Assembly: GCF_000183545.2 (NCBI RefSeq)
Contig: NZ_JH976535.1
Span: 1,107,890-1,171,889, forward strand
Origin: Thermaerobacter subterraneus DSM 13965
GTDB lineage: Bacteria; Bacillota; Sulfobacillia; Thermaerobacterales; Thermaerobacteraceae
Length of the DNA: 64,000 bases
Reading direction: 5' to 3'
The notes beneath the pieces were generated by a model. It ran no database searches. It worked only from the letters and a program-made list of their open reading frames with translations, and had not been told where the DNA came from. Below are positions 41,117-56,782 of this stretch, one piece after another. Numbering within the stretch: the stretch's first letter is position 1; the number at the start of each line of letters is the position of its first letter. The position numbers and the translations under genes are program-made.

Positions 41117-41494
41117 GTGAGCTGGATCGGCCGCATGATGGGCCACGCCGGGGAAGCCGACCTGGAGCGGGTTCAACAGGAATACCGCGTCCTCCTGGCG
41201 GAAGGGGAGCGGATCGAGGCCGCCTACCAGGTGATCCGTGATCTCTTCATCTTCACGAACAAGCGCCTCATCCTGGTCGACAAGCAGGGGCTCACCGGCA
41301 AGAAGGTGGAGTACCTGTCCATCCCGTACCGAAGCATCAACCGGTTTGCCGTGGAGACGGCGGGCCACCTGGATCTGGAGGCCGAGCTCAAGATCTGGCT
41401 GGCGGGTAGCCGGGAGCCGCTGGTCAAGACCTTCCACCGCGACCTGGACATCTACTACGTGCAGCGGCTCCTGGCGACCTACGTCCTTCGGTGA
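41117..41494 (+). CDS. Bacterial PH-domain protein
   Basis: A 125-residue protein. EYRVLLAEGERIEAAYQVIRDLFIFTNKRLILVDKQGLTGKKVEYLSIPYRSINRFAVETAGHLDLEAELKIWLAG matches the bacterial PH (PF08000-type) fold. GTG 41117 follows GGGGAGGGAG. Family members are widespread, with unknown biochemical role. The IS1182 element begins two bases after its stop, so the element inserted at the gene's 3' edge. Confidence 0.85.
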   Translation: MSWIGRMMGHAGEADLERVQQEYRVLLAEGERIEAAYQVIRDLFIFTNKRLILVDKQGLTGKKVEYLSIPYRSINRFAVETAGHLDLEAELKIWLAGSREPLVKTFHRDLDIYYVQRLLATYVLR

Positions 41495-41495
41495 A

Positions 41496-43116
41496 GAGCC
41501 TGTTTCACGAACCCAGGTATTTCCACAGGATTGCACCCACGTGGGTTTAAGTGAGGCCATTGGTTCGCATTCGCCATCGCCCGAGGTGTCCCTATGGCCT
41601 ACAACTTTCGCCCGGTGAACCGTGACCAACTGTACCTGCTCCCACCGAGCCTTCGCGACTGGCTGCCTGAGGATCACCTGGCCTGGTTTCTGATCGACGC
41701 CGTCGAGCAGATGGACCTGCGGGCGTTTCGGAGCAAGTACCGCGCCGACGGATGGGGCGGGGAGAGCTACGACCCCGCCATGATGGTGACGCTCCTGCTG
41801 TACGCCTACTGCGTCGGCGAGCGGTCCAGCCGGCGGATCGAGCGACTGTGCCTCGAGGACGTGGCCTTCCGGGTGATCACCGCCAACCAGAAGCCGGATC
41901 ACGTGACCATTGCCCGCTTCCGCCAGCGCCACGAGCGGGAGCTGGCCGCGCTGTTCACCCAGGTGCTGCGGCTGTGCCGGGAGGCGGGGCTCGTGAAGGT
42001 CGGCGTGGTGGCACTGGACGGGACGAAAGTCAAGGCCAACGCCTCGCTGGCGGCCAACCGAACCTACGATGCGATTCGCCAGGAAGTGGAGAAGATGCTC
42101 CGGGAGGCGGCGGCCACGGACCGGGAAGAAGATGAGCGGTACGGCTCCGGGCGTCGTGGGGACGAGTTGCCGGAGGAGCTGCGCCACCGTGCGAGCCGGC
42201 TGGAGCGGCTGAAGGCATGCAAGCGGCGGCTGGAGGACGAGGCGGCCCGGGAAGCCGCCCGGCAGCAGGCCCGCATCGAGGAGCGGAAAGCCCAGGAGCA
42301 GGCGACCGGCAAGAAGCGGCGGGGGCGCAAGCCGAAGGCGCCGGATCCCTCGGTGGATCCGGCGGCGAAGGCCAACATCACGGATCCGGACAGCCGGATC
42401 ATGAAGACCCGGCAGGGCTTTGTGCAAGGGTACAACGCCCAGGCGGTGGTGACCGAAGACCAGCTCATCGTGGCCGCGGCGGTGACGCAGGACGCCAACG
42501 ACGTGGGCCAACTCCACCCGATGCTCCAGCAGGCGCAAGCCAACCTGCGGGCAGCGGGCGTGGACAAGCCCATCCGGGCCGTCGTCGCCGACGCGGGGTA
42601 CTGGAGCGAGGCGAACGTGAAGCAGGCACCGGCGGATGGGCCGGAACTGTTCCTGGCGACGAGTAAAGAGTGGAAGCAGCGCCAAGCCTGGAAGGACACA
42701 CCCCCTCCGCGAGGCCGCATCCCCAAGGGGCTGAGCCTGCGGGAGCGGATGGAACGCAAGCTGCGGACCCGGCGAGGGCAGGCGATCTACGCCAAGCGCA
42801 GCCAGACCGTGGAGCCGGTGTTCGGGCAGATCAAGACCGTGCGAGGCGCCGACCGGTTCCTGCGTCGCGGTCTGGCGGCGTGTAACAGCGAGTGGAAGCT
42901 GCTCTGCTTGACCCATAACTTGCTGAAGCTCTGGCGGAAGGTAACGAAGGGGTCCGCATCCTCACCCTTTGGTTGGATGGCGGCCGCGTTGGCGTAGAAG
43001 GGTAACGACCGGGCCGCCGGCCTACCCCGTCCTGACCGTCAGCCCACGGGACATGGCCGAATCGACCCGGTACGTTCCCCCAGTTCTGATCTCGTCAGGA
43101 TCAGTGAAACAGGCTC
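41496..43116 (+). mobile_element. Complete IS1182-family insertion sequence
   Basis: Terminal inverted repeats GAGCCTGTTTCAC (41496-41508) and GTGAAACAGGCTC (43104-43116) enclose one full transposase gene. The 21-base left terminus recurs at 44600 and the 32-base right terminus at 55479, so the family has left other marks here. No convincing target duplication was found. Confidence 0.85.
41594..42997 (+). CDS. IS1182-family DDE transposase
   Basis: A 467-residue transposase that looks intact. Catalytic Asp in VVALDGTKVKANAS, Asp in VVADAGYWSEANV and Glu in KRSQTVEPVFGQIK are present; the N-terminal FRPVNRDQLYLLPPSLRDWLPEDHLAWFLIDAVE and the central basic/helical insert are family features. 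It would recognise the 13-bp inverted repeats and could act in trans on the related ends at 44600 and 55510. Confidence 0.93.
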   Translation: MAYNFRPVNRDQLYLLPPSLRDWLPEDHLAWFLIDAVEQMDLRAFRSKYRADGWGGESYDPAMMVTLLLYAYCVGERSSRRIERLCLEDVAFRVITANQKPDHVTIARFRQRHERELAALFTQVLRLCREAGLVKVGVVALDGTKVKANASLAANRTYDAIRQEVEKMLREAAATDREEDERYGSGRRGDELPEELRHRASRLERLKACKRRLEDEAAREAARQQARIEERKAQEQATGKKRRGRKPKAPDPSVDPAAKANITDPDSRIMKTRQGFVQGYNAQAVVTEDQLIVAAAVTQDANDVGQLHPMLQQAQANLRAAGVDKPIRAVVADAGYWSEANVKQAPADGPELFLATSKEWKQRQAWKDTPPPRGRIPKGLSLRERMERKLRTRRGQAIYAKRSQTVEPVFGQIKTVRGADRFLRRGLAACNSEWKLLCLTHNLLKLWRKVTKGSASSPFGWMAAALA

Positions 43117-43173
43117 CGGAGGCGGGAGGTGTATGCTGGGATAGGTTCAGGCAGGAAGGGAGGAGGAGCGGCG

Positions 43174-43473
43174 ATGGGTCTTGGACGCGTGCAGACGCGA
43201 GGTCAAGTAACGATCCCGGTGGAGGTCCGGGAAGCGTTGGGGATCCGGCCTGGGGACGTGTTGTTGTTTGAGGTGCAGGGCCCGGACGAGGGGCGGTTCC
43301 GGGTGATCCGGACGTCGCGCTCGCTGGATGCATTCTTCGACAAGTACCAGGTCGACGGGCCCGTACCAGCAAACCTCTGGGATGCGGTGGCCGAGGACGT
43401 GTCGCGGGACGTCATGGAGAGGGGGCTCCTCGGCACAGCCGAGCGGGAGGCGGCAGCTGCCCGTGGACACTGA
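43174..43473 (+). CDS. AbrB/MazE-type antitoxin
   Basis: A 99-residue protein. The N-terminal swapped-hairpin DNA-binding domain is clear: VQTRGQVTIPVEVREALGIRPGDVLLFEVQG. The C-terminal half (LDAFFDKYQVDGPVPANLWDAVAEDVSRDVMERG) would bind and block the toxin. ATG 43174 follows GGAGGAG. It overlaps the PIN-domain toxin gene that follows by 11 bases, the usual VapB-VapC layout. Confidence 0.88.
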   Translation: MGLGRVQTRGQVTIPVEVREALGIRPGDVLLFEVQGPDEGRFRVIRTSRSLDAFFDKYQVDGPVPANLWDAVAEDVSRDVMERGLLGTAEREAAAARGH

Positions 43474-43889
43474 GCGGGTGCAGCTGGGTTGGCTCGATGC
43501 AAACCTCTTCATCCATCCCTTCTTCCGAGACGCCCATGCCGACCGATGCCGGGCGCTGCTTGCGGCACTGCAGGCAGGAAGGGACGGCGGAAGGGTACCT
43601 GCACCCGGTGACCATCCACGAGCTAACCTATGCACTCTACCGCCATGTGTTCCGGCAGGACCGGAAGGCCGTGGCGGACTACTTGAGCGCCATCATCGCC
43701 CTGGAGACCGTCCACGTGGAAGGCAAACACGTCGTCCTGAAGGCGCTTGAGCTATGGGCCACAGGTGCGTCCGACACCTACGGCGACGCAAGGCTTCGGG
43801 CGCTGGCCGAGCAGACCGGCCTGCCGGTGTGCACCGTGAATCAGCGGCATTTCATCGGCGTGCCGAATACGTACCGCGTTGAACCCTGA
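43463..43889 (+). pseudogene. PIN-domain (VapC-like) toxin with a frameshift
   Basis: Two frames together give a VapC-type PIN ribonuclease of about 140 residues: VQLGWLDANLFIHPFFRDAHADRCRALLAALQAG in the first, then GYLHPVTIHELTYALYRHVFRQDRKAVADYLSAIIAL and YGDARLRALAEQTGLPVCTVNQRHFIGVP in the second. The acidic residues (D in LDANLF, E in IHELTYA, D in DTYGDARLRA) are all still encoded. The break is near 43575 in GGCAGGAAGGGACGGCGG. Either the toxin is inactive while the antitoxin survives, or the shift is a sequence error. Confidence 0.8.
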
Positions 43890-43913
43890 CGGAACGGGGG
43901 CAGGGGAGGTGGG

Positions 43914-44045
43914 ATGGTGCGGGGCAAGTGGGTGTCCGGGCTGCTGATTGGTGGGCTGCTCCTGGCTTTAGGTGTGCCGGTACTCGACGGGGACGACACC
44001 CCCTCGGAAGCAGCCGGCATTTTCGGTCCCCGCTCACTAGGATGA
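43914..44045 (+). CDS. Candidate 43-residue exported peptide
   Basis: ATG 43914 follows CAGGGGAGGTGGG. The peptide begins MVRGKWVSG, continues with one hydrophobic helix (LLIGGLLLALGVPVL), then an acidic joint DGDDTPSEA and ends AGIFGPRSLG. This layout (basic start, membrane or signal helix, short hydrophilic tail) resembles signal-peptide-bearing pheromone precursors or small membrane peptides. No partner receptor gene was identified nearby. Reading frame and ribosome site are clear; function is open. Confidence 0.5.
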   Translation: MVRGKWVSGLLIGGLLLALGVPVLDGDDTPSEAAGIFGPRSLG

Positions 44046-44181
44046 AGTCTTGCAGGGGGGGCGGTGAAAGAAGTGAGCGGACGGACGTCGGGTGCAGGAT
44101 TTCGCGCGTATCGCGCTCGTTGTTGCGCTCGCCGGTGCAGTGCGAATGCGAGCTGCGACCTGCCTCCAAATATGAACGCAA

Positions 44182-44197
44182 TGTCGAGGCATGTCGA
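44182..44197 (+). promoter_or_regulatory. Tandem TGTCGA half-sites upstream of the peptide promoter
   Basis: TGTCGAGGCA-TGTCGATAAG: the same hexamer twice, ten bases apart, about 55 bases before the palindrome TGTCGA-ATTATA-TCGACA. Four copies of one hexamer in 90 bases suggest cooperative binding by one regulator. Confidence 0.45.
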
Positions 44198-44235
44198 TAA
44201 GTTAAAGGACCTTGCCTGCATGCCTTACCATGCAC

Positions 44236-44269
44236 TTGACGGCGCGAATTATGTCGAATTATATCGACA
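44236..44269 (+). promoter_or_regulatory. Sigma-A-type promoter with overlapping perfect palindrome
   Basis: TTGACG (44236-44241), 17-base spacer, TTATAT (44259-44264): a good housekeeping promoter. An 18-bp palindrome TGTCGAATTATATCGACA (44252-44269) covers the -10 box, the position of a repressor operator. Transcription would start near 44271, giving an untranslated leader of about 100 bases before the peptide gene at 44372. Confidence 0.6.
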
Positions 44270-44371
44270 ACACGCCGCTACTCCTCGGAAGGACTTTTTC
44301 ATTGGTCGGCGAATAGGGAATTCGCGCTCGGAAGGGCGCAACACTATGTCACCCGCGGGGAGGTGAGGAAG

Positions 44372-44533
44372 GTGGCCAACGTTTCTACTAGCCCACAGGA
44401 GGAACGCCAGCCTACCGCACCTCAGTCACCCCGGGACCACTTCCTAGACGAGGTGCCTGAGGTTGTGGAGATCCGTATGGATGTTACCAAGGACGCAGTG
44501 ATGCCACGAGGTGCGGGATGTAGCTGGAAATGA
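44372..44533 (+). CDS. Candidate RiPP precursor peptide, 53 residues
   Basis: GTG 44372 lies behind GGGGAGGTGAGGAAG. The peptide starts MANVSTSPQEERQPT, has an acidic leader-like middle (HFLDEVPEVVEIRMDV, then TKDAVM) and ends PRGAGCSWK. Short length, acidic amphipathic leader and a Gly/Cys/Trp/Lys-rich end are the form of precursors modified by radical SAM enzymes. The own promoter upstream and strong hairpin just after the stop also fit. Downstream lie two SPASM radical SAM genes, a B12 radical SAM gene and an ABC exporter. I do not recognise the family. Modification of Cys, Trp or Lys is a guess from the core composition. Confidence 0.6.
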   Translation: MANVSTSPQEERQPTAPQSPRDHFLDEVPEVVEIRMDVTKDAVMPRGAGCSWK

Positions 44534-44535
44534 CG

Positions 44536-44574
44536 GTAGTGAGGGGGGCATTTTGAGTGCCCCCCCGCCCTACC
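44536..44574 (+). terminator. Hairpin directly after the precursor gene
   Basis: GGGGGGCA-TTTTGAG-TGCCCCCC, extended by outer GGTAG/CTACC pairing, three bases past the stop. There is no long T-run, so it may act as a partial terminator or 3' stabiliser, letting the peptide be made in excess over its enzymes. Confidence 0.6.
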
Positions 44575-44599
44575 TCTCTGAGGATTAATGGACACATTA

Positions 44600-44620
44600 G
44601 AGCCTGTTTCACGAACCCAG
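44600..44620 (+). repeat. Solitary IS1182 left terminus
   Basis: Twenty-one bases identical to the left end of the IS at 41496 (begins GAGCCTGTTTCACGAACC); similarity stops abruptly afterwards. See the matching right terminus at 55479. Confidence 0.8.
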
Positions 44621-45206
44621 AATCCGGAAATTATATACCAGATGTGGTGTCGGTCTCAATGCATATGCCCTAGATATCGTGCGCGAGCGACGTCCGAGTT
44701 GTTCCGTGCAACAGGCTCATTACAGGGGCGCAAATCTACCGAGGATGGGGGCCCGCACGGCCATTATTCACGCCAAAAGATATCTGCGTTTACTGGGTCC
44801 AAGCAGAAGGCGGTACCACGGCTGCATCCATGGCAATCATTGCCCGTTGATACTGCCTTCGGCCGTTAACAGGTCCACCTGTATGTTTGGGTCCGACATC
44901 GTGATTGATCGCTGTTTCGCCAATAAATACGTTGGATTCCTCGCTTCACGTCTTAGCCGCGGCCTTGGACTTGTTTCCGTCCCGCCCCTGGCGACGGTAA
45001 CCTGGGACCATCACCAGGAGTGGCCGTCCCAGAAGCGACCAAATTACGTCCGCGGGTGCTAGGACTTTGCGGGCGCCACGCCCAGCGACTCAACACCTAG
45101 ATCCTAATCATTGCGCGGTGGTCTTCGTACGCCCCATGGCGTGAAGGGGTAGGCCTTTCATCGCCATAGAAACGATCATCTCCACCGCGCTTAAGGAGGT
45201 GAAAGC
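44621..45206. other. AT-richer gap between the precursor and first radical SAM gene
   Basis: About 585 bases with no supported gene. Two open frames (up to 127 codons) have no convincing ribosome site or recognisable domain. The last 15 bases carry AAGGAGGTGAAAGC, the ribosome site of the radical SAM gene. Confidence 0.35.
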
Positions 45207-46583
45207 GTGATCTTGTCCTTCGGGGACCGCTGGTTGATTCGGCGTGAATACTTTGGAGCGCTGGCCGTAGACAAGACCGGTGAAGATCGTGTGCTCTACC
45301 TTAATCGACCTGCTGCCACAATAGTGGAACTTTGCATTAGAGCGCCGAGACAACTCGACGATCTTGTAACCTGGTTCGGCAATGATAGTAGAACAACAAT
45401 TCAGTCTCTCGTTCACCGGCAGCTTCTCGAAGCGGACTTGGTTGATACGTATCGTATAATAGAATCATCGGAAATACACGACGTCGTTTCTACATTTGAT
45501 ATGTTGAACCCTGATTATCTGACTGCACCGTTCGAAGTCAATCTCTATACAACAACCAGGTGCAACCTAAATTGCAAATTCTGCTATCTCTCGGCCGATA
45601 CGCGGCAGCAATATGGCCCCAACGTGATGGAACGAACCTTACTCGCCAAAGCGCTTAGCGACTGCGCAGAAGCAGGTGTAATGTGCGTAAACTTCTTGGG
45701 CGGGGAACCCTTTCTTGACCAACAGGCGATCCGTTACGCTATAGAACATTACTACAATCGGTTCTTAATCAGCATAACGACTAACGGTACCATCGCCCCG
45801 GATGATTATACACTCTCGCTTTTATCACGACCGGGAGTCGATGTAATCGTCTCGATTCATTCTTCTAAGCCAGAGGTACATGATTTTGTAACGCAAGCGA
45901 CCGGTGCTTGGCATAGGGCAGTGCATACACTTAAGAGGCTAACACGGGCTGGAGTCAGAACAGCAGTGCAAATGGTCCTGACTCGGTTCACGACGAAAGA
46001 CGATGTAATTGGGCTCGTGCGCATGGCACGCGAGTTGGGAGCCAATGGTTTCTATGTAAATAACATGTTTCCTGGCTCGCATATGTCTCTAGAGGAGTAT
46101 GTGGCAATCGCTATGCCGCCTGAGGACGTTCGGCCAATTGCCGAGGAATTGAACGAGTTGCGGCGGCACTATAGCGATTCGTTCTATATCTTCCCCAAAG
46201 GAACATATCTGTTCGCATACAATGACGAGCCTATACCCAACGAGAGTGGACTTGACAAGTATTTGTGGCCAGTTGTGGACGGTCTAACTAGTTTAGAAGT
46301 GATGTCTGATGGGCAGGTATTTCCGGGTCCCGTACTGCTAAACGGTATAAGCGAGCCGGTTGGAAATTTGCGTGAGAAGACGTTGTATGATGTTTGGCAC
46401 TCTACAGAAATGCAACAGCGTAGGAAGAGGCCAACTATTTCTTACTCTCCATGCCGAGAGTGCGTGCATGTATCAGTCTGTGGCGGTGGCAGCGGCTCTA
46501 TTTCGCGAGTCATTGCTGGACGAGAGACGGCAGGTGACGTGCGCTGCCCGCGGGTGTGGCGATTGTTGGTCCAGGCAAATTAG
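45207..46583 (+). CDS. Radical SAM/SPASM peptide maturase 1 with PqqD-like N-terminus
   Basis: A 458-residue enzyme. Residues 1-85 form a PqqD-like domain (WLIRREYFGALAVDKTGEDRVLYLNRPAATIVELCI, IQSLVHRQLLEADLVD), the type that binds precursor leaders. The radical SAM core has CNLNCKFC (about 118-125) and FLGGEPFLD. The C-terminal SPASM/twitch region has CRECVHVSVCGGGSGS and a further Cys in GDVRCPRVW. It would use a 5'-deoxyadenosyl radical to alter a peptide. GTG 45207 has a near-ideal AAGGAGGTGAAAGC. Codon use is far more AT-rich than in the flanks, indicating transfer. Confidence 0.9.
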   Translation: MILSFGDRWLIRREYFGALAVDKTGEDRVLYLNRPAATIVELCIRAPRQLDDLVTWFGNDSRTTIQSLVHRQLLEADLVDTYRIIESSEIHDVVSTFDMLNPDYLTAPFEVNLYTTTRCNLNCKFCYLSADTRQQYGPNVMERTLLAKALSDCAEAGVMCVNFLGGEPFLDQQAIRYAIEHYYNRFLISITTNGTIAPDDYTLSLLSRPGVDVIVSIHSSKPEVHDFVTQATGAWHRAVHTLKRLTRAGVRTAVQMVLTRFTTKDDVIGLVRMARELGANGFYVNNMFPGSHMSLEEYVAIAMPPEDVRPIAEELNELRRHYSDSFYIFPKGTYLFAYNDEPIPNESGLDKYLWPVVDGLTSLEVMSDGQVFPGPVLLNGISEPVGNLREKTLYDVWHSTEMQQRRKRPTISYSPCRECVHVSVCGGGSGSISRVIAGRETAGDVRCPRVWRLLVQAN

Positions 46584-46588
46584 AAAAA

Positions 46589-47190
46589 GGTGGCCGAAGC
46601 GCTCCGAGGCTACTTGGAAGAGCTCGAGGCCAATGATCGGGCGGAGGGTGCGGAACTCGGCCTGGACTGGACAGCGGGTGGCGGTTGCCGCCCGAGGTGG
46701 CGACGGTGGAAGAGCGGCTGAAGGCGATTCAGGCGGGCAAGGCCCGGCTGGAGCAGCGGGCCCGGGCCGCGGCCGAAGCCAAGGAAGCGGCGCGGGAAGC
46801 GGAGGCAGCCAGGAAGGGGCGTCGCTCCCGCCGCAAGCAGGCCGCTACTGAACCACGCCCGGCGGACAAGGACCCGATCAACTTTGCAGACCGCGAGTCG
46901 CGAATCATACGCAGCGCCGACAAGGCCTTCATCCAGGGGTGCAACGCTCAACTGACCGTCGAAGCGGAGACGCGCGTGATCGTAACGGCGGACCTGACGA
47001 ACCAGGGCGGCGACGCACCCCATTTGGTGCGCCAGCTGGAGCAAGTCGAGCCGAACACGGGGCGCTACCCCTGGGAACTTGCCGCCGGCGCCGGTTATTC
47101 CAGTGAAGCCAACCTCCAGGCCCTACCGGACAAGTCCGTCTCACACAGGCTGTTGCACGCGGAGGCGGAATTGGCGCTCTGCCGGCCGTA
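46589..47190 (+). pseudogene. Decayed IS1182-like transposase fragment
   Basis: High-GC debris between the two AT-richer radical SAM genes. VAEALRGYLEELEANDRAEGAELGLDW, then in another frame VEERLKAIQAGKARLEQRARAAAEAKEAAREAEAARKGRRSRRKQ, ADKDPINFADRESRI and AGAGYSSEANLQAL match the middle of IS1182-type transposases. Both termini are missing, there is a frameshift near 46685, and the catalytic Asp of ADAGYWSEAN reads Gly. Confidence 0.75.
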
Positions 47191-47256
47191 ACGACACTTC
47201 GTAACAGCTGGAGTTAACACCTGCTTGAACTATAAACCATGAGGGGAGGGACAACC

Positions 47257-48696
47257 ATGATGCGCGTCGGGCAGCACGTAGCGTTCAACTACAAGGAATA
47301 TACCTTTAACCGGTTCAAGGACGAGGCATACCTCTTTCACCGTCGAGAGCGCAAGTACACCGTTTTTCGAGGCTTGGTAGCAGATTTGATCCATTTAATC
47401 TTTGTGGAAAGTGCTACGAGGGATCTGCTTTACAATCGACTAAATGCGGTTACTCATCCAGGTCGCATCAGCAGAGAACAATTTGAGGATGCGCTGACAA
47501 GACTGGCGGAGGAAAATATAGTGGTACTTGAAGACGTATACCGCCGTACACCGGCCTTGCCTGGTGATACGGACGCAGTGACGCATGTACGCCATCATCG
47601 CGATAGGCCTTATTTCTACGCTCCGTTAGCTGCAAACCTATTTATCAACGGGAGATGTAATCAGCGGTGCTCATTCTGCTTTCTTGATTTCGGATTGATG
47701 GCCCAACAAGAAAAGAGGAAATTGTCGTGTGAAGAGTGGCTCGCTATAACGGACGAATTGATACACGCGGGTGTCAACGTGATTAATATCGGGGGTATGG
47801 AGCCATTTCTAGATATTGAGTTGACCATTTCTATTTTGGAAAAAGCTTATGAAAACGGATGCATCGTTGGCGTCATCACGAATGGCAGCATCTCATTATC
47901 CAGCGAACAAATGGAACGACTCGCTGCGATGCAATGTTACGTAGGGGTCTCGTTGGAAGCGCACGTTCCAACCGTTCACAATGACTTAGTGAATGCGCGC
48001 GGAGCGTTTCAGCAATGTGTGGCCAATATCGAAAAGATGATCCAGCACGGCGTGCCGGTTGGTATTCAAACTGTAGCTTTGCGATCCAATATGGCCTACT
48101 TGGAACAGTTTGTTGAATGGCTTGAGGAATTGGGGGTAAAGTCGCTGTCGATTCAAAACATCTTTGCGGGTCCATGGTGCAGCCATGTACGGTTTTTCGA
48201 CCTTGCAATGACCCCGGCGGAATATCGGACTATTGTTGAAAGGGCCAAATTGCTAGAAAGAACGGCGAAAATTCGAATTGAATACGAGGCCTTTCCGCAC
48301 GAGCGACCAAACGACTATTATACGGGACCGCTGCAAGGCATTCGTTTTAGGCTGTACAGTATGTGTTCCGCAGGTAAAACGGCAATCCAAGTGTCGCCCA
48401 CGGGTGACTTAAGTCCGTGCCCGTTTACAGTTGGTCACTCGGAGCATGTTGTTGGCAATCTCTTGGCCAATAAACTATTAGTTCTGTGGCATGACTCTGC
48501 TGCGTTCGGTCCATTTCGAAAGACTAGAAGGGAGGATTATGCGTCTGTTGCATGCCGGACTTGCGAGATGTTTGACATTTGCAGAGGGGGATGCCTTATT
48601 ACCGCACGCTGGGCAAACGGTGGCTACCTCAATGGTGATCCGCGGTGTTCGAAGGTGTGGGATGCCGTGGAAACGCTCGAGGCTCAGTCGCGGTAG
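47257..48696 (+). CDS. Radical SAM/SPASM peptide maturase 2 with PqqD-like N-terminus
   Basis: A 479-residue enzyme of the same general type as the first but clearly divergent. The N-terminal 110 residues (YTFNRFKDEAYLFHRRERKYTVFRGLVADLIHLIF, LTRLAEENIVVLEDVY) look like a winged-helix leader-binding domain. The core has CNQRCSFC (about 134-141) and INIGGMEPFLDIE. SPASM cysteines are in YSMCSAGKTAIQVSPTGDLSPCPF and CRTCEMFDICRGGC. ATG 47257 is set by GGGGAGGG. Two such enzymes suggest two different modifications, or that they act in sequence on the 44372 peptide. Confidence 0.9.
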   Translation: MMRVGQHVAFNYKEYTFNRFKDEAYLFHRRERKYTVFRGLVADLIHLIFVESATRDLLYNRLNAVTHPGRISREQFEDALTRLAEENIVVLEDVYRRTPALPGDTDAVTHVRHHRDRPYFYAPLAANLFINGRCNQRCSFCFLDFGLMAQQEKRKLSCEEWLAITDELIHAGVNVINIGGMEPFLDIELTISILEKAYENGCIVGVITNGSISLSSEQMERLAAMQCYVGVSLEAHVPTVHNDLVNARGAFQQCVANIEKMIQHGVPVGIQTVALRSNMAYLEQFVEWLEELGVKSLSIQNIFAGPWCSHVRFFDLAMTPAEYRTIVERAKLLERTAKIRIEYEAFPHERPNDYYTGPLQGIRFRLYSMCSAGKTAIQVSPTGDLSPCPFTVGHSEHVVGNLLANKLLVLWHDSAAFGPFRKTRREDYASVACRTCEMFDICRGGCLITARWANGGYLNGDPRCSKVWDAVETLEAQSR

Positions 48697-49049
48697 TCAG
48701 GGTGTTTTAGCTGGCTGTAAGGAATGGTCGCTGGCGGGGTCCGGCCCCGCGTACTAGGGCACGGTAAGTCCTACGGTTTCTCCATAGTACGATGAATGCC
48801 CCAGGCATCGTGATTGAGCCGCCTCGATTGTACTGGATTTTGTTAGATGATCGGGCCGAGCCGTTGTACATTACGAGTAGCCGTGGTACCCATTGGACCC
48901 CATGCTGCGCCTGCGTGTTGCACGCGCGATGGAAGCGATCCGCTGCACGTAGACCTGAGCTATGTCGTCCCGCGTATCATCGGCGTGCCGGCACGCGGCG
49001 GGCCAGTTGTGCGTTCCATCATCGCCTTTTTGTGGCGGAGGCCTAGCCG
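48697..49049. other. Gap after radical SAM 2 with hairpin and unidentified frames
   Basis: A GCGGGG-TCCGG-CCCCGC stem stands at 48734-48750, about 40 bases after the stop. Frames beyond 48792 (LYWILLDDRAEPLYITSSRG in one, YPLDPMLRLRVARAMEAIRC in another) look like broken coding sequence of unknown origin. Confidence 0.35.
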
Positions 49050-49290
49050 CAGCTGTCGCAGGAAACGGGGCAGCATCATCCTGACGAGCAGCAAGGGCTT
49101 TGCGGAGCGGACGACGCGCTGGGTGCCTGAGGGATTAGCACGGCGATCCTCGACCGGCGCTCCACGGCAGCCATGTTATCAACCTCCGGGCGGCTACCGG
49201 CTGCGGGAGAAGAAGCGAGGCGGCTTGTTTGGCGGGGCACCACCCCGGACGGAAGTGATGCCGGAGTACCCCGCGACCGTTCGGGAGTGA
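49050..49290 (+). pseudogene. IS21-family IstB helper ATPase remnant
   Basis: Fragments GSIILTSSKGFAE, TAILDRR and YRLREKKRGGLF, spread over more than one frame, correspond to the C-terminal region of IstB (SIILTSN...GEWG..., AILDRLLHH, YRLREKRRAGL). High GC and multiple frame breaks mark it as a dead relic between the radical SAM genes. Confidence 0.65.
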
Positions 49291-49429
49291 CCCCTACCAC
49301 TGCCGGAGAATAGCTCTCACCCCGTCGTACGGGAGGGACGGATCCAACGACCTCCGATCGTGACGATACTTTGCAAACGCCGGCAAGGGATCCTTTTTGG
49401 ACCTTAACCCACACGGGGGCATTTGGGAT

Positions 49430-50833
49430 ATGAGGGCTTTATACATCCACCCTGGGATGAATGGGCGATCGTCTATGTACGCCATTATGCCGATGGGGGC
49501 TGTCGCTTTAGTCAACCTGCTGCGTGAACGGGGATGGAGTGTATGCGGAGTCAATGCCGCAATGGAACGGTCCTTATCCTCTAGTTTTGATCTGGCACGC
49601 TTCTTGGCTTCCCTTCCGAGGCAGGATTTAGTGCTCATTGATTTGCATTGGTATATGCATACCGCTGGCGCGTTTGAGGCCGCATCCCTCGCACGTACTC
49701 TTTGGGAAGACAGCATAGTCGTCGTGGGTGGCATGACAGCGAGTATTTTTGCGGAGGACGTGCTTCGGCTATGCCCGTCAATTGACGTTGTTATTCGTGG
49801 CGACGCGGAAGACGCAGTGCTCCAGCTTGCAGAACTAGCGTGTCACGGCGACCGAGACTTTGCTAGAATACCAAATGCAGTGTATTGGAACGACAATACT
49901 ATATGCCGCTCACCTCGTTTGGCAGCAACGTCACCCACACTATTCAACGAATTGGACTTTGTAACCATTGACTGGCTACACAATTGGCAAGCATACTACA
50001 AAACTGGGATTAGTGGATACTCCCCAATGCAAAAGTCCAGGTACTGGTTGGAAACAGCGCGAGGGTGCTTCTATAACTGCATTATGTGTGGCGGTGGACA
50101 ATCTGTGCATGAAAACCTGTGCGGACTTCGTCGCCCGTTGTTTAGGGATGTTGGCCGGATCTTGTCAGACATAGAGCGCCTTTATGAACTGGGCGTAGAA
50201 CAAGTTGCTTTCTCACACGACATTTTTACACTGCCGTTCCCCGGCCGAGAGGATCTTTTGCGTGGTCTGCTGGCTCGCGGTCTCAAAGTGGGCTTGTACC
50301 ATGAGTTCTGGCGGTTAACGGCGACGTTCGTCATTAGCCAATTGCACACGGTTTTCGACGCAGAGAGGTCAGATATTGCCATTTCTCCGGAATCGGGATG
50401 CGAAGTCGTGCGAAAGCGCAATTTCCCCAGCAAATTCTTTAAGAATGAGGAGCTACTTGAACTATTGCGGACTTTGTCCAAAGCCACATTTGAACTACAA
50501 GTCTTCTTTGCCGCGAATCTGCCGTGGGAAACGGAGACCACCTGGCAAGAGACATTGCGATTAACTCGTGACATCGTAAGTGTATATGGGTGCGACCGCC
50601 TAACATTGTATGCGGGCTTTATCACAATTGATCCGATGTCGCCTATGTGGCTTAACCCTGATACATACAACATTCATCGGTATTTTAGCGGCCTCAGTGA
50701 TTATTGGCGCATGACTAACGAAGGAGTAAGGCGACCTGGGTACGAAAGTGAAGAGTTGACTATTGCAGGCGTGCGAAGGAACCTCGAAAGATTTCGCGAA
50801 GTAGCAATCAGCATGAGGAAGGCTCAGGTATGA
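49430..50833 (+). CDS. B12-binding domain radical SAM protein
   Basis: A 467-residue class-B-type radical SAM protein. The N-terminus (MRALYIHPGMNG, VALVNLLRERGWSVCGVNAAM, VVVGGMTASIFAEDVLRLCPSIDVVIRGDAEDA) is a cobalamin-binding Rossmann domain; the core has CFYNCIMC (about 212-219) inside YWLETARGCFYNCIMCGGG, then HDIFTLPF, ISPESGCEVVRKRN. Relatives methylate unactivated carbons or do other B12-assisted chemistry. It may methylate the peptide of this cluster. ATG 49430 starts exactly at the domain; a TTG at 49397 is the alternative. Codon use is AT-rich like the other cluster genes. Confidence 0.88.
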   Translation: MRALYIHPGMNGRSSMYAIMPMGAVALVNLLRERGWSVCGVNAAMERSLSSSFDLARFLASLPRQDLVLIDLHWYMHTAGAFEAASLARTLWEDSIVVVGGMTASIFAEDVLRLCPSIDVVIRGDAEDAVLQLAELACHGDRDFARIPNAVYWNDNTICRSPRLAATSPTLFNELDFVTIDWLHNWQAYYKTGISGYSPMQKSRYWLETARGCFYNCIMCGGGQSVHENLCGLRRPLFRDVGRILSDIERLYELGVEQVAFSHDIFTLPFPGREDLLRGLLARGLKVGLYHEFWRLTATFVISQLHTVFDAERSDIAISPESGCEVVRKRNFPSKFFKNEELLELLRTLSKATFELQVFFAANLPWETETTWQETLRLTRDIVSVYGCDRLTLYAGFITIDPMSPMWLNPDTYNIHRYFSGLSDYWRMTNEGVRRPGYESEELTIAGVRRNLERFREVAISMRKAQV

Positions 50834-50946
50834 TCACTCACACCAACAGGCGTGGTGGGTCTCCTCTAATAGCCGTTGAATGCGGCGAGTGGCGGTATCG
50901 TAATTCACTGCAGTTTTTCGTAGTGGCGGTCCCCCGGGATAATTGA
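50830..50946 (+). CDS. Possible 38-residue coupled small ORF
   Basis: ATG 50830 overlaps the B12 radical SAM stop by four bases (ATGA). The product begins MITHTNRRGGSPL, contains AVECGEWRYRNSLQFFVVAV and ends PRDN. Translational coupling and position before the exporter hint at a real small gene, but length and unfamiliar sequence leave this open. Confidence 0.3.
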   Translation: MITHTNRRGGSPLIAVECGEWRYRNSLQFFVVAVPRDN

Positions 50947-50982
50947 CCAGAACCAGGCACTGCAATGGGGAGGACTCCGTGG

Positions 50983-51909
50983 GTGTCCGACAATGTCGTG
51001 ATCATGGCGCGTGGATTAACCAAGAGATACGGTAACATTGATGCATTACGGGGCGTGGACTTAAGGGTTAGTTCTGGAGAGTGTGTCGGGATACTCGGTC
51101 CGAATGGTGCTGGTAAGACAACTCTACTCAACATAATATCCGGGCGGACCGAGCCGACTTCAGGTACGCTTTGGGTGTTGGGGAAAGATATTGCAGACGC
51201 ACCATCTGTGATTAAGGAAAGGGTAGGCTGTGTTCCGCAAGAAAACAACCTAGACCCTGAGCTGAGCGTGATTGAAAACCTGGAACTATACGCGCGATAC
51301 TTTGGCATGAGTTCTCATGTAGCCCGGCAACGGGCGCAGGAACTCCTACGATTCGTTGACCTAGACAATAAGGGGGACGCCAAGATCGATGAGTTATCTG
51401 GGGGTATGAAGAGGCGCCTAATTATAGCGAGGTCCTTAATTAATGACCCTGAGCTGGTCGTACTGGACGAGCCGACAACAGGGTTGGACCCACAGGCACG
51501 TCTGACTGTTTGGGAGAAGATACGAGAATTGAAGTCGGGTGGGCGCACGTTGATATTGACAAGCCATTATATGGAGGAGGCATGGCGGCTTTGTGATCGG
51601 GTAGCAATATTACATGAAGGCAGCATCATCGCGGAGGGTGAGCCCAGCTCCCTCGTCACTCAGTACGTGGGTAAGTGGGTTATGGAGATTCATGACACTG
51701 TGGAGCCGAACTTGGATATGGCCAGGGTTCAAGCCGATGTCCGCCGTGTCGAACAGCTCGGGAGGAGCGTTTATGTCTACGCAGACAGTCCTGATGTACT
51801 GATGGGCATGCTGCCGGCGGAGCTTCGCAATCCAAATCAGTATTTGATTCGTCCCGCAAACTTGGAAGATGTCTTCTTAATCGTCGCAGGGAAGGGACTA
51901 AGGGCATGA
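50983..51909 (+). CDS. NodI-like ABC transporter ATPase
   Basis: A 308-residue ABC ATPase: Walker A GPNGAGKTT (about 41), Q-loop VPQENNLD, signature LSGGMKRRL (about 139), Walker B LVVLDEPTTGLDP and switch His in LTSHYMEEA. The signature variant LSGGMKRRL and CDRVAILHEG fit the DrrA/NodI export group. GTG 50983 is preferred for its GGGGAGGA ribosome site; ATG 50965 is in frame. Its stop overlaps the permease start. It likely powers export of, or immunity to, the modified peptide. Confidence 0.92.
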   Translation: MSDNVVIMARGLTKRYGNIDALRGVDLRVSSGECVGILGPNGAGKTTLLNIISGRTEPTSGTLWVLGKDIADAPSVIKERVGCVPQENNLDPELSVIENLELYARYFGMSSHVARQRAQELLRFVDLDNKGDAKIDELSGGMKRRLIIARSLINDPELVVLDEPTTGLDPQARLTVWEKIRELKSGGRTLILTSHYMEEAWRLCDRVAILHEGSIIAEGEPSSLVTQYVGKWVMEIHDTVEPNLDMARVQADVRRVEQLGRSVYVYADSPDVLMGMLPAELRNPNQYLIRPANLEDVFLIVAGKGLRA

Positions 51910-52682
51910 GACGACTGTTATTGCCAACCGTCAGCAGGAAAGCACTTGCGGTTACACTAAGAAATTGGCTTGCATGGCGGAAGCAATTTCACACTAACAT
52001 TATACTGTTTCTTGGTGATCCTGTAATGTACTTAGGTGCCATCGGGTGGGGTCTTGGAGGGTTTGTGAACCTCAATGGTACGTCTTTGCTAGAGTATATC
52101 GCTCCAGGACTTCTTGTCATGACTGCTGCGACTAGCGTGGTGTATGACATAACGTCGGGAGGGTATATGCGGCTGCGCGAACAGGGCGTCTATCAAGCAA
52201 TGATGAATACTTCAATAAGAGAAGAGGAGATTATAGCGGGCGAATTGATATGGGAAATTGTGCGCAGCATTATGTATGGAGGTATGTTTTTGTTGGTCAC
52301 CGTCTTGTTTGGATTAATGCCGGCGTGGTCCGTGATTATGTTGCCAGCCATTCTGGCCATCAATGGTATGTTTTTCGGGTCTATCACGTGGACTGTAGTG
52401 GCAAAAATCCGGCATGTAGAGCAGTTGTTCTACTACTTTACGCTGGTGGTGACTCCGTTATTGCTGTTCTCGGGTGTATTTTTCCCTGTTGATAAACTGC
52501 CGGGAATCGCGCAGATGATAATTCAAGTTCTACCAATGTACCACATAGTGGAAATGAGTAGGGATGTCTTTTTCGGCGAGCTAGGAGTATCCACGTTACA
52601 CCATGCTATCTGGGCTATAGGTGGCACTGCTGTGGCGTTGCTGTTTCCGGTCCGGGAGTTAAGACGTGCATTACGGGAATGA
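51906..52682 (+). CDS. NodJ-like ABC-2 permease
   Basis: A 258-residue ABC-2-type permease with six membrane helices (LFLGDPVMYLGAIGWGLGGFV, EYIAPGLLVMTAATSVVYDI, GGMFLLVTVLFGLMPAW, IMLPAILAINGMFFGSITWTVV, YYFTLVVTPLLLFSGVFFPVDKLP, AIWAIGGTAVALLFPV). The LFSGVFFPVDKLP motif is characteristic of NodJ/DrrB-like exporters. It pairs with the upstream ATPase (four-base overlap). The IS3 element begins 13 bases after its stop, so it may be the cluster's last gene or the boundary may have been cut. Confidence 0.92.
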   Translation: MRRLLLPTVSRKALAVTLRNWLAWRKQFHTNIILFLGDPVMYLGAIGWGLGGFVNLNGTSLLEYIAPGLLVMTAATSVVYDITSGGYMRLREQGVYQAMMNTSIREEEIIAGELIWEIVRSIMYGGMFLLVTVLFGLMPAWSVIMLPAILAINGMFFGSITWTVVAKIRHVEQLFYYFTLVVTPLLLFSGVFFPVDKLPGIAQMIIQVLPMYHIVEMSRDVFFGELGVSTLHHAIWAIGGTAVALLFPVRELRRALRE

Positions 52683-52756
52683 GTTGCAATGGAGTTGGCC
52701 CGGTTTCGTGGACAGGTTGAGGCTTACGCGACGACCCCTTCCTGTGGCTGAGCCTT

Positions 52757-53620
52757 TCACTCCTGGATCCAACGCTCCTCGTACTCGTAAGGCGAGAGGT
52801 AACCCAGTGCCGAGTGACGCCGCCGCCGGTTGTAGAACCCTTCGACGTACTCGAAGATCGCCATGCGCAGTTGATCCCGAGTGGCCCAGGTTTGCCGGTC
52901 GAGGAGTTCCGTCTGCAGCGTCGCGTAGAAACTCTCCGCCACGGCGTTGTCCAGTGCATCGCCCACGGAGCCCATCGATCCGGCGATGCCCAGGGCCTCC
53001 AAGCGACGGGTCAACGCCAGCGAGGTGTACTGGGCCCCATGGTCGGAGTGGTGGATCAAGCCGGGCCCCGGTCGGCGCCGCCGCACCGCCATGGTGACGG
53101 CGTCCACCCCCAACTCCGCCACGGGCCGGTCGCCCATGGCCCAGCCCACTACGGCGCGGGAAAAGGCATCCACCACCGTGGCCAGGTACAGCCAGCCTTC
53201 CTCCGTGCGGTGCTCCGTGAGGTCCGCCACCCACACCCGGTTGGGCGCATCGGGTACAAACTGGCGATGCAGCCGATCCGGATAGACGGGTCGTCGCGGA
53301 TCCCGGCGGGTCACCCCTCGGTTCCGGCGCCGGTGCACCCCGGTGAGCCCCATGGCCCGCATCAGCCGGGCGATGCGCTTGCGTCCGCAACGGATGCCAT
53401 GAACCAGCCGAAGTTCGGCGTGCACCCGCGGGGCCCCGTAGGTGCCCCGGCTCGCGGTGTGGATGGCGTGGACGCGCCGGCTCAGTTCTGCGTCTTCGCG
53501 GGACCGCTGCGAGATCCCACGCCGCCGCCATGCGTAGTAGCCGCTTGTCGAGACGCCCAGCACACGGCACAAGGTCGCCACAGGGTGATGCGCCTTCTCC
53601 TGCTCGACGAACCGGAACAC
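52757..53620 (-). CDS. IS3-family transposase OrfB (DDE integrase part)
   Basis: A 288-residue rve-type integrase: HTH-like FVEQEKAHHPVATLCRVLGVSTSGYYAWRRR, then the DDE core with Asp in RVWVADLTEH, Asp in GLIHHSDHGAQYTS and Glu in DNAVAESFYATLQTELL, and the end RRHSALGYLSPYEYEE. It is normally made as an OrfAB fusion by -1 frameshifting. GTG 53620 is only the internal start; the frame is open up to the IS110 junction at 53664. Because IS110 separates it from OrfA, the fusion cannot now be made from this copy. Confidence 0.9.
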   Translation of the reverse strand: MFRFVEQEKAHHPVATLCRVLGVSTSGYYAWRRRGISQRSREDAELSRRVHAIHTASRGTYGAPRVHAELRLVHGIRCGRKRIARLMRAMGLTGVHRRRNRGVTRRDPRRPVYPDRLHRQFVPDAPNRVWVADLTEHRTEEGWLYLATVVDAFSRAVVGWAMGDRPVAELGVDAVTMAVRRRRPGPGLIHHSDHGAQYTSLALTRRLEALGIAGSMGSVGDALDNAVAESFYATLQTELLDRQTWATRDQLRMAIFEYVEGFYNRRRRHSALGYLSPYEYEERWIQE

Positions 53621-53687
53621 CGTTACCGGCTCCGGTGGTTCTCCTGGGCAAAAAAGGCCGCGGCTCCCTCGAAAATGCGGCGTGGGC

Positions 53688-54920
53688 TTAGGCGGCGGAC
53701 ATGGGCTTCTCAAGTGTGACCTTGTAACCCAGCGCCTCAAGACGTGCCACGGTCCGCCGGACGGTGGCCTGCTCGTTGAGCCGTTCGAAATGCGCCGCCC
53801 CAAGATCGTTATAGCGTGTGCCGTGCTTGATCATGTGGTAGATGATCACCAAGATGCTATGGGCGACGGCCACTTTGGCACGGTTCTTGCCCCGCCGCGC
53901 AGCGAGGCGGCGGAATTGGGCCGCCAAGTAGGTGTCGCGTGTCCGCGCCGCAGCCTGAGCCGCGCGGACCAGGGCCGCCCGTAGATAGGCGTTCCCTTGC
54001 CCCGTGTTCCCACTCCGGCGCTTTCCGGCACTCTGGTTGTTGCCCGGACAGATCTTGGCCCACGAGGCCAGGTGACGATGCGTCGGGAAGCGGCTCATGT
54101 CGACGCCGATCTCCGCCAGGATCTCCTCGCTTGTGCGCCGGGCCAGGCCATCCAGCTCGTCCATCCGCTCCAGGATGGCTTCATAAGGGCGCATGCGCTC
54201 GGCGATCTCGCGATCCAAAGCGGCAATCTGCTCATCCAGGAACTCGACGTGGGCCAGCTGTGCAGCCAGCAACCGCCGTTGGTGCGGGCCGATCAAACCC
54301 GTCAGCGCTTGGACCAAGCTCTCCCGCTTGCTCCGCAAACGACCCCGGGCCAAATCCGCCAGCTTCTCCGGATCCGTCTCTCCGGCAATGATGGCCTTTA
54401 ACATCTGCCGGCCGGAGACACCCAGGACCACGCTGGTCACATCCCCGAGTTTGATGTTGGCACCTTCCAGCACCTTTTGGATCCGGTTCGCTTCCCGGGC
54501 TTGCTCCTGGATCAAGCTCCGGCGGTAGCGCACCAGTTCCCGCAGCTCCCGCTGGTTGCGATCCGGGATGAAGCTGCCCCGCAGCAGCCCATGCCGGAGC
54601 AACTCCGCGATCCACGCGGCATCCTTGACATCCGTCTTGCGACCCGGTACCTGCTTGATGTGTTGCGCATTGACCACCAGGACCTCGATCCCGGAGCCCT
54701 CGAGCAGGTTGTAGACCGGCTTCCAGTACACCCCCGTGCTCTCCATGGCCACGTGCGTCACGCCGTGGTGTTGCAGCCAAGCGACCAACTCCAACAACGG
54801 CGCCGTCATCGTGCCGAAGGTCCGCGTCTCACGGACCTCCGGGGTGATCACACAACCGGTCACCGTCTGCTTATGCACGTCCAGCCCCGCGCACCGCTCG
54901 TGCACCACGTCCACCGCCAC
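53688..54920 (-). CDS. IS110-family DEDD transposase/recombinase
   Basis: A protein of about 410 residues. The N-terminal RuvC-like DEDD part includes [34 protein letters not shown] and [25 protein letters not shown]; the C-terminal Tnp domain has the conserved [26 protein letters not shown], with the likely catalytic Ser. Recombination in this family is directed by a bridge RNA from the element's own non-coding end. GTG 54920 is the likely start; the frame runs to 55064 but the extra residues are not family-like. Frame intact. Confidence 0.9.
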
Positions 54921-55156
54921 CGCCCCCCGTCCCAGGGAACTCACCGGCGTGGCGATCGCCTCGGTCAAGATTCTCCCTCGCGTGCTCCCCCGTGCGGAGG
55001 GCAACAGTTCGTGGTGCCGCGCGATCGCCAGGATCAGACTTTTTTGCGGGCTTGCCGGCACCAAGCAAGCTCGATCTCATGCAACCGGTGGCACATACAA
55101 CTTTGGCTGGACGCCATTTTCGTCCTTCGTGGTGCCGCCGTAGGCGGCATGGAGGA
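54921..55156 (-). ncRNA. Candidate bridge RNA region of the IS110 element
   Basis: Only about 20 bases lie between the transposase stop and one edge, but about 235 non-coding bases lie upstream of its start. In IS621-type elements this end encodes the bridge RNA whose loops pair with target and donor DNA. No structure was computed; a target loop should pair with sequence around the IS3 T7 run (55158-55164) and its partner GGCCGCGG. Confidence 0.4.
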
Positions 55157-55412
55157 CTTTTTTTAGGATTTCACGCTCCTCCCGCAGGATCCGGTTCTCC
55201 CGCCGCAGCCGGTTCAGTTCCTCCCGTTCGGCCGTGGTCAACCCGGGGCGCTGCCCCGCATCGATCTCGGCTTGGCGGACCCACTTCCGCAGGCTGGCTT
55301 CCGAGACGCCGAGGTCGGCGGCAATCTGCTGGAGCTTCTTCCCGCTCTCCCGGACGAGGCGGACGGCTTCGGCCCGAAACTCGGAAGGGTACGGCGGCTT
55401 GGTAGCCGGCAT
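55077..55412 (-). CDS. IS3-family OrfA, 3' end replaced by IS110 sequence
   Basis: Helix-turn-helix/leucine-zipper protein: FRAEAVRLVRESGKKLQQIAADLGVSEASLRKWVRQ, then EREELNRLRRENRILREEREILKK. The true frame runs to 55158; residues after KK are read from IS110 DNA. ATG 55412 has AAAGGGTG upstream; GTG 55421 is an alternative. The A7 slippery run follows ATCCT at 55158-55164 on the minus strand. Confidence 0.88.
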   Translation of the reverse strand: MPATKPPYPSEFRAEAVRLVRESGKKLQQIAADLGVSEASLRKWVRQAEIDAGQRPGLTTAEREELNRLRRENRILREEREILKKVLHAAYGGTTKDENGVQPKLYVPPVA

Positions 55413-55478
55413 GGGGATCACCCTTTCCGGGGCTTATGCCCCAAGTATCGGGGTGTCCACGAAACCGGGGCAAGTCCA

Positions 55479-55510
55479 TCTGATCTCGTCAGGATCAGTG
55501 AAACAGGCTC
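55479..55510 (+). repeat. Solitary IS1182 right terminus
   Basis: Thirty-two bases identical to the right end of the IS at 43116 (ends CAGTGAAACAGGCTC), starting six bases after the IS3 edge. With the left terminus at 44600 it brackets 10.9 kb in the orientation of a single element. Confidence 0.8.
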
Positions 55511-56125
55511 TGGTGATCGGTGCACTGCGGCACGGTTTCACCTCGGTGGTGGCCGACTATTCTTCCCGGCCCTTCGCCCAAAACGTCGAGCTCACTCGCA
55601 AGGTCGTGGAGGCTGCCCACGCGGCCGGCGCGGCCGTGGAGGGGGAGCTCGGCTACGTCCCCCCCACCGGCGAGTAGGCACCGCCAGCCTCGACAGGGGA
55701 CGGCACAGCCGGGGGGGATACCCGGGACTCCTTCACCCGCCCCGATGAGGGCCGAGGCCGTCGTCGCCCGTACAGGCGTGGACAGCCTTGCGGTATCGAT
55801 CGGGACGGTACACGGGGCATACCGCGGTGAACCCCAATTGGACCTGGAGCGATTGGAAGCGATCCGGTGCCGGGTTCCGGTACCGCTGGTCCTGCACGGT
55901 GGGTCGGGAGTACCGGGGGACTTGCTCCGGGAGGCCATCGCCCGGGGCATTACCAAGATCAACTTCGCAACGGAGTTGAAACACGCTTGGAGTCATACCG
56001 TGCGCTCCGCCCTCGCCGGCGCAGCGGCATCGGACCCCAGGCACGTGTCACGGGCGGGGCTTGAGGCCCTCAAGGCCGCCGCGGCGGGAAAGATCCGGCT
56101 CTGCGGAGCGAGGGGGCGGGCCTGA
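55511..56125 (+). pseudogene. Class II fructose/tagatose-bisphosphate aldolase remnant
   Basis: Two in-order blocks belong to one class II aldolase: ALRHGFTSVVADYSSRPFAQNVELTRKVVEAAHAAGAAVEGELGYVP (then a stop and a shift) and AEAVVARTGVDSLAVSIGTVHGAY, VPLVLHGGSGVPGDLLREAIARGITKINFATEL. The zinc and phosphate-binding Gly-rich parts remain, but the N-terminal half with the first zinc ligands is missing at the IS edge, and there is an internal frame break near 55700. The IS event therefore ran into or deleted part of a sugar-catabolic gene. Confidence 0.75.
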
Positions 56126-56127
56126 GC

Positions 56128-56558
56128 GATGGACCCGCGTACGGCGCGTGTACGAGCGCCCCGGCGGCAAGGCGGTGAACGTAGCCAGGGTCCTCGGCCA
56201 GCTGGGGGTGCGTACGACGGTTGCAGGATTCGTCGGGGGCACGACGGGCCGCCGGATCGATGCCGCGCTGACGGCGTCCGGCTACGAGACGCGCTGGGTA
56301 TGGATCGACGGCGAGACCCGGCGTTGCGTCGCAAATCCCGTGGGCGCCGGCGATGCCGTGGTGGCCGCCCTCGTGGACGCGAGCCTGCGAGGGTGGTCCT
56401 GGCCGGAACGATTGTCTCATGCGGCGGCGGCCACGGGCGCTGTCGTGGCGGCTCCCGTGGCCGGGGAGATCGACGCCGGCGTCTACGGGGAGCTACGCGG
56501 GCGCGTACGCCTTAAGAAAATTCGTCGGCCGTGGGCCCAGGAAGGAATTTGTTGTTAA
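56128..56558 (+). pseudogene. PfkB-type sugar-phosphate kinase remnant
   Basis: VRRVYERPGGKAVNVARVLGQLGVRTTVAGFVGGTTGRRIDAAL is the N-terminal substrate-binding part of a 1-phosphofructokinase/tagatose-6-phosphate kinase. It jumps directly to NPVGAGDAVVAALVDASLRGWSWPERLSHAAAATGAVV with the catalytic Asp. The middle of about 170 residues is deleted. It follows the aldolase remnant in the order of a tagatose/fructose pathway operon. The next 220 bases up to coxM hold no gene and may contain the cox promoter. Confidence 0.75.
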
Positions 56559-56782
56559 GTCGCGAAGACAACGAAACCGAACCACGGCACCGTGGCTGGG
56601 GGAGAAGACACGGGGCGGGGAGCGGCCGACGTTGCTCTCCGTATCGCCGCACAGTCACTGCAGTTCCCAGGTCGTCGCTACATCTCTGGAGGGTCCAACC
56701 TTGTCCCGTCCCCAGTGCCCCGTTTGGGCGTGCAAGGCGCCGCTCCCCGCATGCCCGGAAGAATCGCGATAGGGGGAGTGTC

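Follow-up and report, generated by a model that had tools for sequence, protein, structure and literature searches.

The locus studied here raises the question whether a small peptide and the radical SAM enzymes encoded behind it form a RiPP pathway, and whether such a pathway would be a new one. It lies in a window of 64,000 nucleotides from Thermaerobacter subterraneus DSM 13965 (contig NZ_JH976535.1), which is the whole stretch of DNA that was analysed. In the initial annotation, a RiPP system had been proposed with a 53-residue precursor, two radical SAM/SPASM proteins (here rSAM1 and rSAM2), a B12-binding radical SAM protein and an exporter made of an ABC ATPase and an ABC-2 permease. We found every claimed open reading frame in its place, all on the plus strand (Table 1), and the Pfam and NCBIfam libraries backed the assignment of the five large proteins, none of which scored above the curated NCBIfam cut-off of any family compared. 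The best reading of the locus is a SPASM-type RiPP cluster of uncertain activity. On the sequence evidence, we put the probability that it is a horizontally acquired radical-SAM RiPP cluster with the 53-aa peptide as its precursor at about 0.55.

Table 1. Position of the genes, mobile elements and signals of the locus (coordinates of the window)
Feature	Coordinates	Strand	Evidence or remark
Intact IS1182-family element, left edge of the insertion	41496..43117	+	NF033551; copies 91-96% alike in congener G003
Possible weak sigma-70-like promoter, TTGACG-18-TATATC	44236..44265	+	Read from the sequence; missing from consensus scan
Candidate precursor, 53 aa, GTG start, C-terminus PRGAGCSWK	44372..44533	+	Ribosome site GGAGGTGA 5 nt upstream
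RNA hairpin after the peptide stop	44536..44575	+	MFE -26.9 kcal/mol, z -2.8
rSAM1, radical SAM + SPASM, 458 aa	45207..46583	+	PF04055 and PF13186 above gathering
IS1182-family remnant between rSAM1 and rSAM2	46603..47124	+	83-84% to copies elsewhere in the genome
rSAM2, radical SAM + SPASM, 480 aa, all seven SPASM cysteines	47254..48696	+	PF04055 and PF13186 above gathering
Repeat piece in the gap between rSAM2 and the B12 gene	49064..49262	.	77-79% to places in congeners G000-G003
B12-binding radical SAM protein, 467 aa, CX3CX2C at C213/C217/C220	49430..50833	+	PF02310; TIGR04190 175 bits
ABC ATPase, NodI/DrrA-like	50965..51909	+	Pfam/NCBIfam
ABC-2 permease, NodJ/DrrB-like, start overlapping the ATPase stop (ATGA)	51906..52682	+	Pfam/NCBIfam
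IS3-family element, right edge of the genes, split by an IS110-family element (~53666-55156)	52690..55478	-	Profile matches and congener DNA comparison

The claim that the genes lie in AT-richer DNA agrees with the base composition, as the GC content is 51-55% over 44-52 kb against about 70% elsewhere in the window. In a DNA comparison with three congeners, the segment of about 41,495-56,770 proved to be an insertion that is absent from congener G001. Window positions 41494 and 56771 are only about 0.54 kb apart in that genome, so about 15 kb has been inserted here (or lost in G001). The gene island is best read as horizontally acquired, brought in by mobile elements and bounded by insertion sequences. 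The IS-bounded insertion had been overlooked in the initial annotation, together with the IS1182 remnant inside the cluster, the loss of Aux I cysteines in rSAM1 and the loose arrangement of the operon. In addition, the congeners carry uninterrupted copies of the IS3 element, in which the two halves adjoin. Between the left IS1182 element and the peptide, the stretch 43129-43889 likely carries a VapBC-like pair, made up of a MazE/AbrB-type antitoxin (PF04014) and, behind it, a PIN-domain protein that scores just under gathering (PF01850). Two sites on contig C2 of congener G003 match this stretch at 73%. On the other side, at 55520-56558, the IS elements are followed by pieces of a truncated class-II fructose-bisphosphate aldolase and of a PfkB kinase, apparently remnants, before the downstream genes begin. 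A reading of the locus as a defence system was rejected, as the PADLOC matches were to generic viperin-like radical SAM only, and the Rfam search gave no match.

The genes do not form a tight operon, since gaps of about 0.65-0.75 kb lie between them. The peptide is separated from rSAM1 by 0.67 kb; the gap between rSAM1 and rSAM2 is also 0.67 kb and is mostly filled by the IS1182 remnant, and the 0.73 kb gap between rSAM2 and the B12 gene contains part of a repeat common to all congeners. Several copies of this stretch of about 200 bp were seen in each of them at 77-79%. Clear coupling was found only in the ABC pair. Rearrangement has affected the cluster, possibly with loss of genes; the island encodes neither a peptidase nor a separate RRE protein. 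This arrangement brings in the alternative of a decaying, inactive import, in which foreign genes are trapped between insertion sequences, rSAM1 is degenerate and the operon is broken by IS remnants. This alternative agrees with the IS1182, IS3 and IS110 sequences, whole or as remnants, that lie within and beside the cluster, with the adjoining aldolase and PfkB fragments and with the three cysteines missing from rSAM1. However, the five large ORFs (rSAM1, rSAM2, B12 protein, ABC ATPase and permease) are all uninterrupted, and rSAM1 keeps its radical SAM and Aux II motifs; what it has lost is exactly the ligand set of a single cluster, a pattern suggestive of specialisation more than of random decay. 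Decay of the whole import is considered somewhat unlikely.

Both SPASM enzymes are best read as parts of a radical-SAM locus for peptide maturation, given their matches to SuiB, and this much of the proposed RiPP system stands, whereas its named precursor is plausible rather than demonstrated. In a search of PDB sequences, SuiB was the best solved match of rSAM1 (2e-14, residues 10-429), and it was second for rSAM2 (1.6e-10) after PqqE (3.4e-12). AF2 models of both enzymes were built from alignments of 29 distant homologues, with confident cores and poor N-termini. In a second alignment, SuiB was the top structural match of each model, with Z 29.1 and 4.0 A over 348 residues for rSAM1 and Z 31.1 and 5.0 A over 361 residues for rSAM2. 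The KxxxW maturase profile TIGR04080 also aligns over residues 7-429 of rSAM1, below its cut-off. SuiB is one of the few solved enzymes with the layout RRE, radical SAM and SPASM; since such structures are few and the identity is about 20%, the match argues for peptide modification and not for Lys-Trp chemistry as such.

The PqqD-like N-termini ascribed to both enzymes were at best weakly confirmed. The N-terminus of rSAM1 gave a weak in-register match to PqqD (6 of 3000 shuffles were as good), that of rSAM2 gave no real one (307 of 3000), and the Pfam PqqD profile matched neither protein. The SuiB match of the rSAM1 model begins at model residue 31, inside the N-terminal domain, and this part of the model has a beta-beta-beta-alpha-alpha order at low confidence. 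When the N-terminal pieces of rSAM1 and rSAM2 were compared with PDB sequences on their own, there was no match, so the RRE reading comes from the shuffle test together with the alignment to SuiB over the full length. A PqqD-like recognition domain (RRE) is likely at the N-terminus of rSAM1 and uncertain in rSAM2, as judged from these comparisons.

The likeness to SuiB also bears on a third possibility, that the cluster makes or modifies a non-ribosomal substrate (a small metabolite, a cofactor or a tetrapyrrole-like molecule) with the Drr/NodIJ-type ABC pair as exporter. Among the profile matches below cut-off are the heme-type enzymes NirJ and AhbD, ABC-2 pairs of the NodIJ/Drr type usually export small molecules, and the TIGR04190 family of the B12 protein has no known role in such a setting. 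Against this, both SPASM proteins match the RRE-bearing peptide cyclase SuiB over their full length and the N-terminus of rSAM1 is RRE-like. A non-peptide substrate appears improbable.

The interesting and testable point of the locus is rSAM1. Its CX3CX2C radical SAM motif is intact, and all Aux II ligands are kept (C416, C419, C425 and C447), but the Aux I ligand positions are V356, G374 and S429, so that all three cysteines are gone. The ligands of rSAM2, by comparison, are complete (CCC for Aux I and CCCC for Aux II); this enzyme has GGMEP at 47793-47811 in place of the GGEP that radical SAM enzymes normally read. Among the 29 aligned homologues, only rSAM1 combines zero Aux I cysteines with a full Aux II set, and the other incomplete sequences are missing Aux II ligands or parts of both sets. 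In the streptide-type KW cyclase, Cys347, 365 and 419 ligate Aux I and Cys406, 409, 415 and 437 ligate Aux II; the characterised SPASM enzymes compared in the same work all have the Aux I cysteines conserved (PMC5491770). The authors judged retention of Aux II with loss of Aux I very unlikely in the enzymes they studied (PMC5491770), and rSAM1 reads as exactly this case. The enzyme may be active alone, a partner of rSAM2 or degenerate; specialisation is favoured over random decay because the radical SAM motif is intact and the loss follows a clean pattern, confined to the ligands of one cluster. In a bolder form of the RiPP reading, the locus would represent a new RiPP class: a pair of paralogous SPASM enzymes, with rSAM1 using Aux II and no Aux I and perhaps serving as partner of rSAM2, would work on the one core GAGCSWK together with a B12 radical SAM enzyme. 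We consider this doubtful; if true, it would go against the expected retention of a buried Aux I in SPASM peptide enzymes.

The 53-aa ORF is a plausible candidate for the precursor of the cluster enzymes. The strong ribosome site claimed for it was confirmed, as GGAGGTGA has 8 nt at a spacing of 5 nt before the GTG at 44372 and is the longest in the intergenic regions. When the region was shuffled, 2.7% of the shuffles (P 0.027) had an ORF of 50 aa or more behind a site of 7 nt or longer, and the gaps between the cluster genes contained no other small ORF with a comparable site. On the other hand, the codon usage of the ORF is not gene-like (-0.08 bits/codon, against 0.24 for the cluster genes and -0.21 for random sequence); all 34 windows of cluster genes score higher, and the value of the ORF is reached by 10% of random stop-free sequences. 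Since leader peptides have an odd composition, the poor score is no refutation of a precursor, yet it is no support either. The peptide had no homologue in the family libraries or in 72,556 plasmids, and its exact core pattern was present, among 399 genomes, in its own genome alone. Furthermore, the ORFs with CSW- or WK-like ends beside the fetched SPASM loci were chance reads only. In the literature, we found no relevant paper with GCSWK as a peptide core and none on Thermaerobacter together with radical SAM and RiPP.

The signals around the peptide are of unequal value. Its own promoter, as claimed, is visible as TTGACG-18-TATATC; it is not among the 13 sites found by the consensus scan (6.8 expected), and for this reason it is doubtful. 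The hairpin claimed downstream of the peptide is real. It has no T-run and is not among the terminator-like sites, and it is possibly an attenuator.

These results bear on the alternative that this is a radical SAM cluster of the RiPP type with another precursor, whose gene lies elsewhere in the genome or was lost or displaced by IS insertions, and that the 53-codon ORF arose by chance. A codon score within the range of random stop-free DNA and under all windows of the cluster genes is what a chance ORF would give, the IS remnants sit in two of the gaps, and no relative of the peptide was found in the plasmids or the 399 genomes. However, the ribosome site is the best in the region, the ORF sits just upstream of the maturases, and the gaps hold no rival candidate with a site of this quality. 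We regard this alternative as unlikely and keep the 53-aa peptide as the candidate precursor.

If the 53-aa peptide is the precursor, it would be translated from the strong ribosome site, and its leader, roughly residues 1-43 and including the strand-like segment EVVEIRMDV, would be bound by the N-terminal recognition domain of rSAM1. Together, rSAM1 and rSAM2 may cross-link or oxidise the C-terminal core GAGCSWK at one or two places, and the B12 radical SAM protein could add a methyl group or another bond. The leader would be removed by a host protease, as the island encodes none, and the NodIJ/Drr-type ABC pair might export the small product. The genes with their domains and SuiB-like architecture, and the island itself, are established; we infer the small ORF as substrate, the modified residues, the role of the B12 enzyme and the export of the product; a Lys/Trp/Cys cross-link or a C-methylation of the product is put forward on inference only. 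B12 radical SAM enzymes in RiPP clusters methylate carbons, and C-methylation had been tentatively proposed for this one. Its B12 and radical SAM domains were confirmed; its gene has no clear ribosome site. Methylation is one option among several for this protein, because the B12 radical SAM enzyme of the pbs RiPP cluster cross-links ortho-tyrosines (PMC12257519).

Relatives of the cluster were sought in several collections. The congeners contained no homologue of rSAM2 (E <= 1e-20), rSAM1 (E <= 1e-25) or the B12 protein (E <= 1e-45). In relatives and about 400 genomes of the phylum, the best match of rSAM1 and rSAM2 was 31% over part of the protein, and the B12 protein had no match at E <= 1e-45 outside its own genome in the phylum sample; a second phylum sample appears to be of the same kind as the first and is not independent. 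In plasmids, rSAM1 had no match, rSAM2 had only PqqE/MftC-like matches and the B12 protein had one distant match, and there was no near match in viral contigs. A single contig scan of 84,980 species' genomes was made with the patterns CNQ[RKN]C[SKR]FC and GGMEPF[LV]D, derived from rSAM2 alone and chosen from a steered alignment of the window's sequence with three artificial rows altered outside the selected stretches. It returned 80 distant SPASM loci, the best being Nitrospirota SPASM proteins of about 33% over part of rSAM2, and the gene set of the cluster was in none of the 80. Since a pattern scan misses relatives without those stretches and covers rSAM2 only, the result means no relative at this sensitivity. 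In a related genome of the same class (G017), we also observed 17 PqqD-profile matches, for example at L121, several of them above the cut-off, which suggests that it may encode many RRE/SPASM peptide systems.

Overall, the RiPP reading is favoured by the SuiB matches, the TIGR04080 alignment, the weak PqqD match of rSAM1, the P value of the ribosome site and five intact large ORFs in a foreign IS-bounded segment. The codon usage of the peptide, the lack of conservation found for the peptide and the gene set, the gaps with their IS remnants, the missing peptidase and separate RRE protein and the absence of a clear PqqD match for rSAM2 weigh against it. As no close relative was found and rSAM1 is without the Aux I site, which binds a buried iron-sulfur cluster in characterised relatives, the cluster may give rise to a peptide product not yet described. 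An active cluster would amount to a RiPP pathway that has no known counterpart and would directly test the roles of the two auxiliary clusters in SPASM enzymes. The locus also illustrates how such a cluster is placed in a high-GC genome, as a small import between insertion sequences.

Compared with known systems, the ABC pair shares with the NodIJ/DrrAB ABC-2 exporters the ATPase and ABC-2 permease with overlapping start and stop, and it is related to them without being a member (324 bits against the NodI cut-off of 521, and 138 against 207 for NodJ). The B12 protein is nearest to TIGR04190, the Ta0216 family (175 bits, cut-off 500), and is distant from the RiPP methylase model TIGR03975 (32 bits); it resembles the B12 radical SAM enzymes of RiPP clusters in its B12-binding and radical SAM domains and in its position near a candidate peptide and further maturases. 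The top NCBIfam profile of rSAM2 is that of mycofactocin MftC (110 bits, cut-off 265), and the PqqE profile gives 104 bits against a cut-off of 381; unlike the PQQ and mycofactocin loci, the island has no PqqA/MftA-like precursor and no other pqq or mft genes. GeoRSP (TIGR04303), a system whose name comes from radical SAM and SPASM proteins, is the top curated profile for rSAM1 (102.6 bits) and the second for rSAM2 (109.2 bits), both far under the cut-off of 400, and to our knowledge its description includes no set of B12 radical SAM protein and NodIJ. The SuiB/StrB KxxxW cyclases of the streptide family (TIGR04080; PDB 5V1Q/S/T) differ in sequence, with about 20% identity and 62.7 bits for rSAM1 against a cut-off of 500. 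The KxxxW spacing is absent from the peptide, in whose core GAGCSWK the W and K are adjacent, and rSAM1 is without the Aux I cysteines that SuiB-type enzymes have at Cys347, 365 and 419 (PMC5491770). What the locus has in common with this family is the layout of radical SAM and SPASM domains, with a likely RRE in rSAM1, and a candidate core that contains both Trp and Lys.
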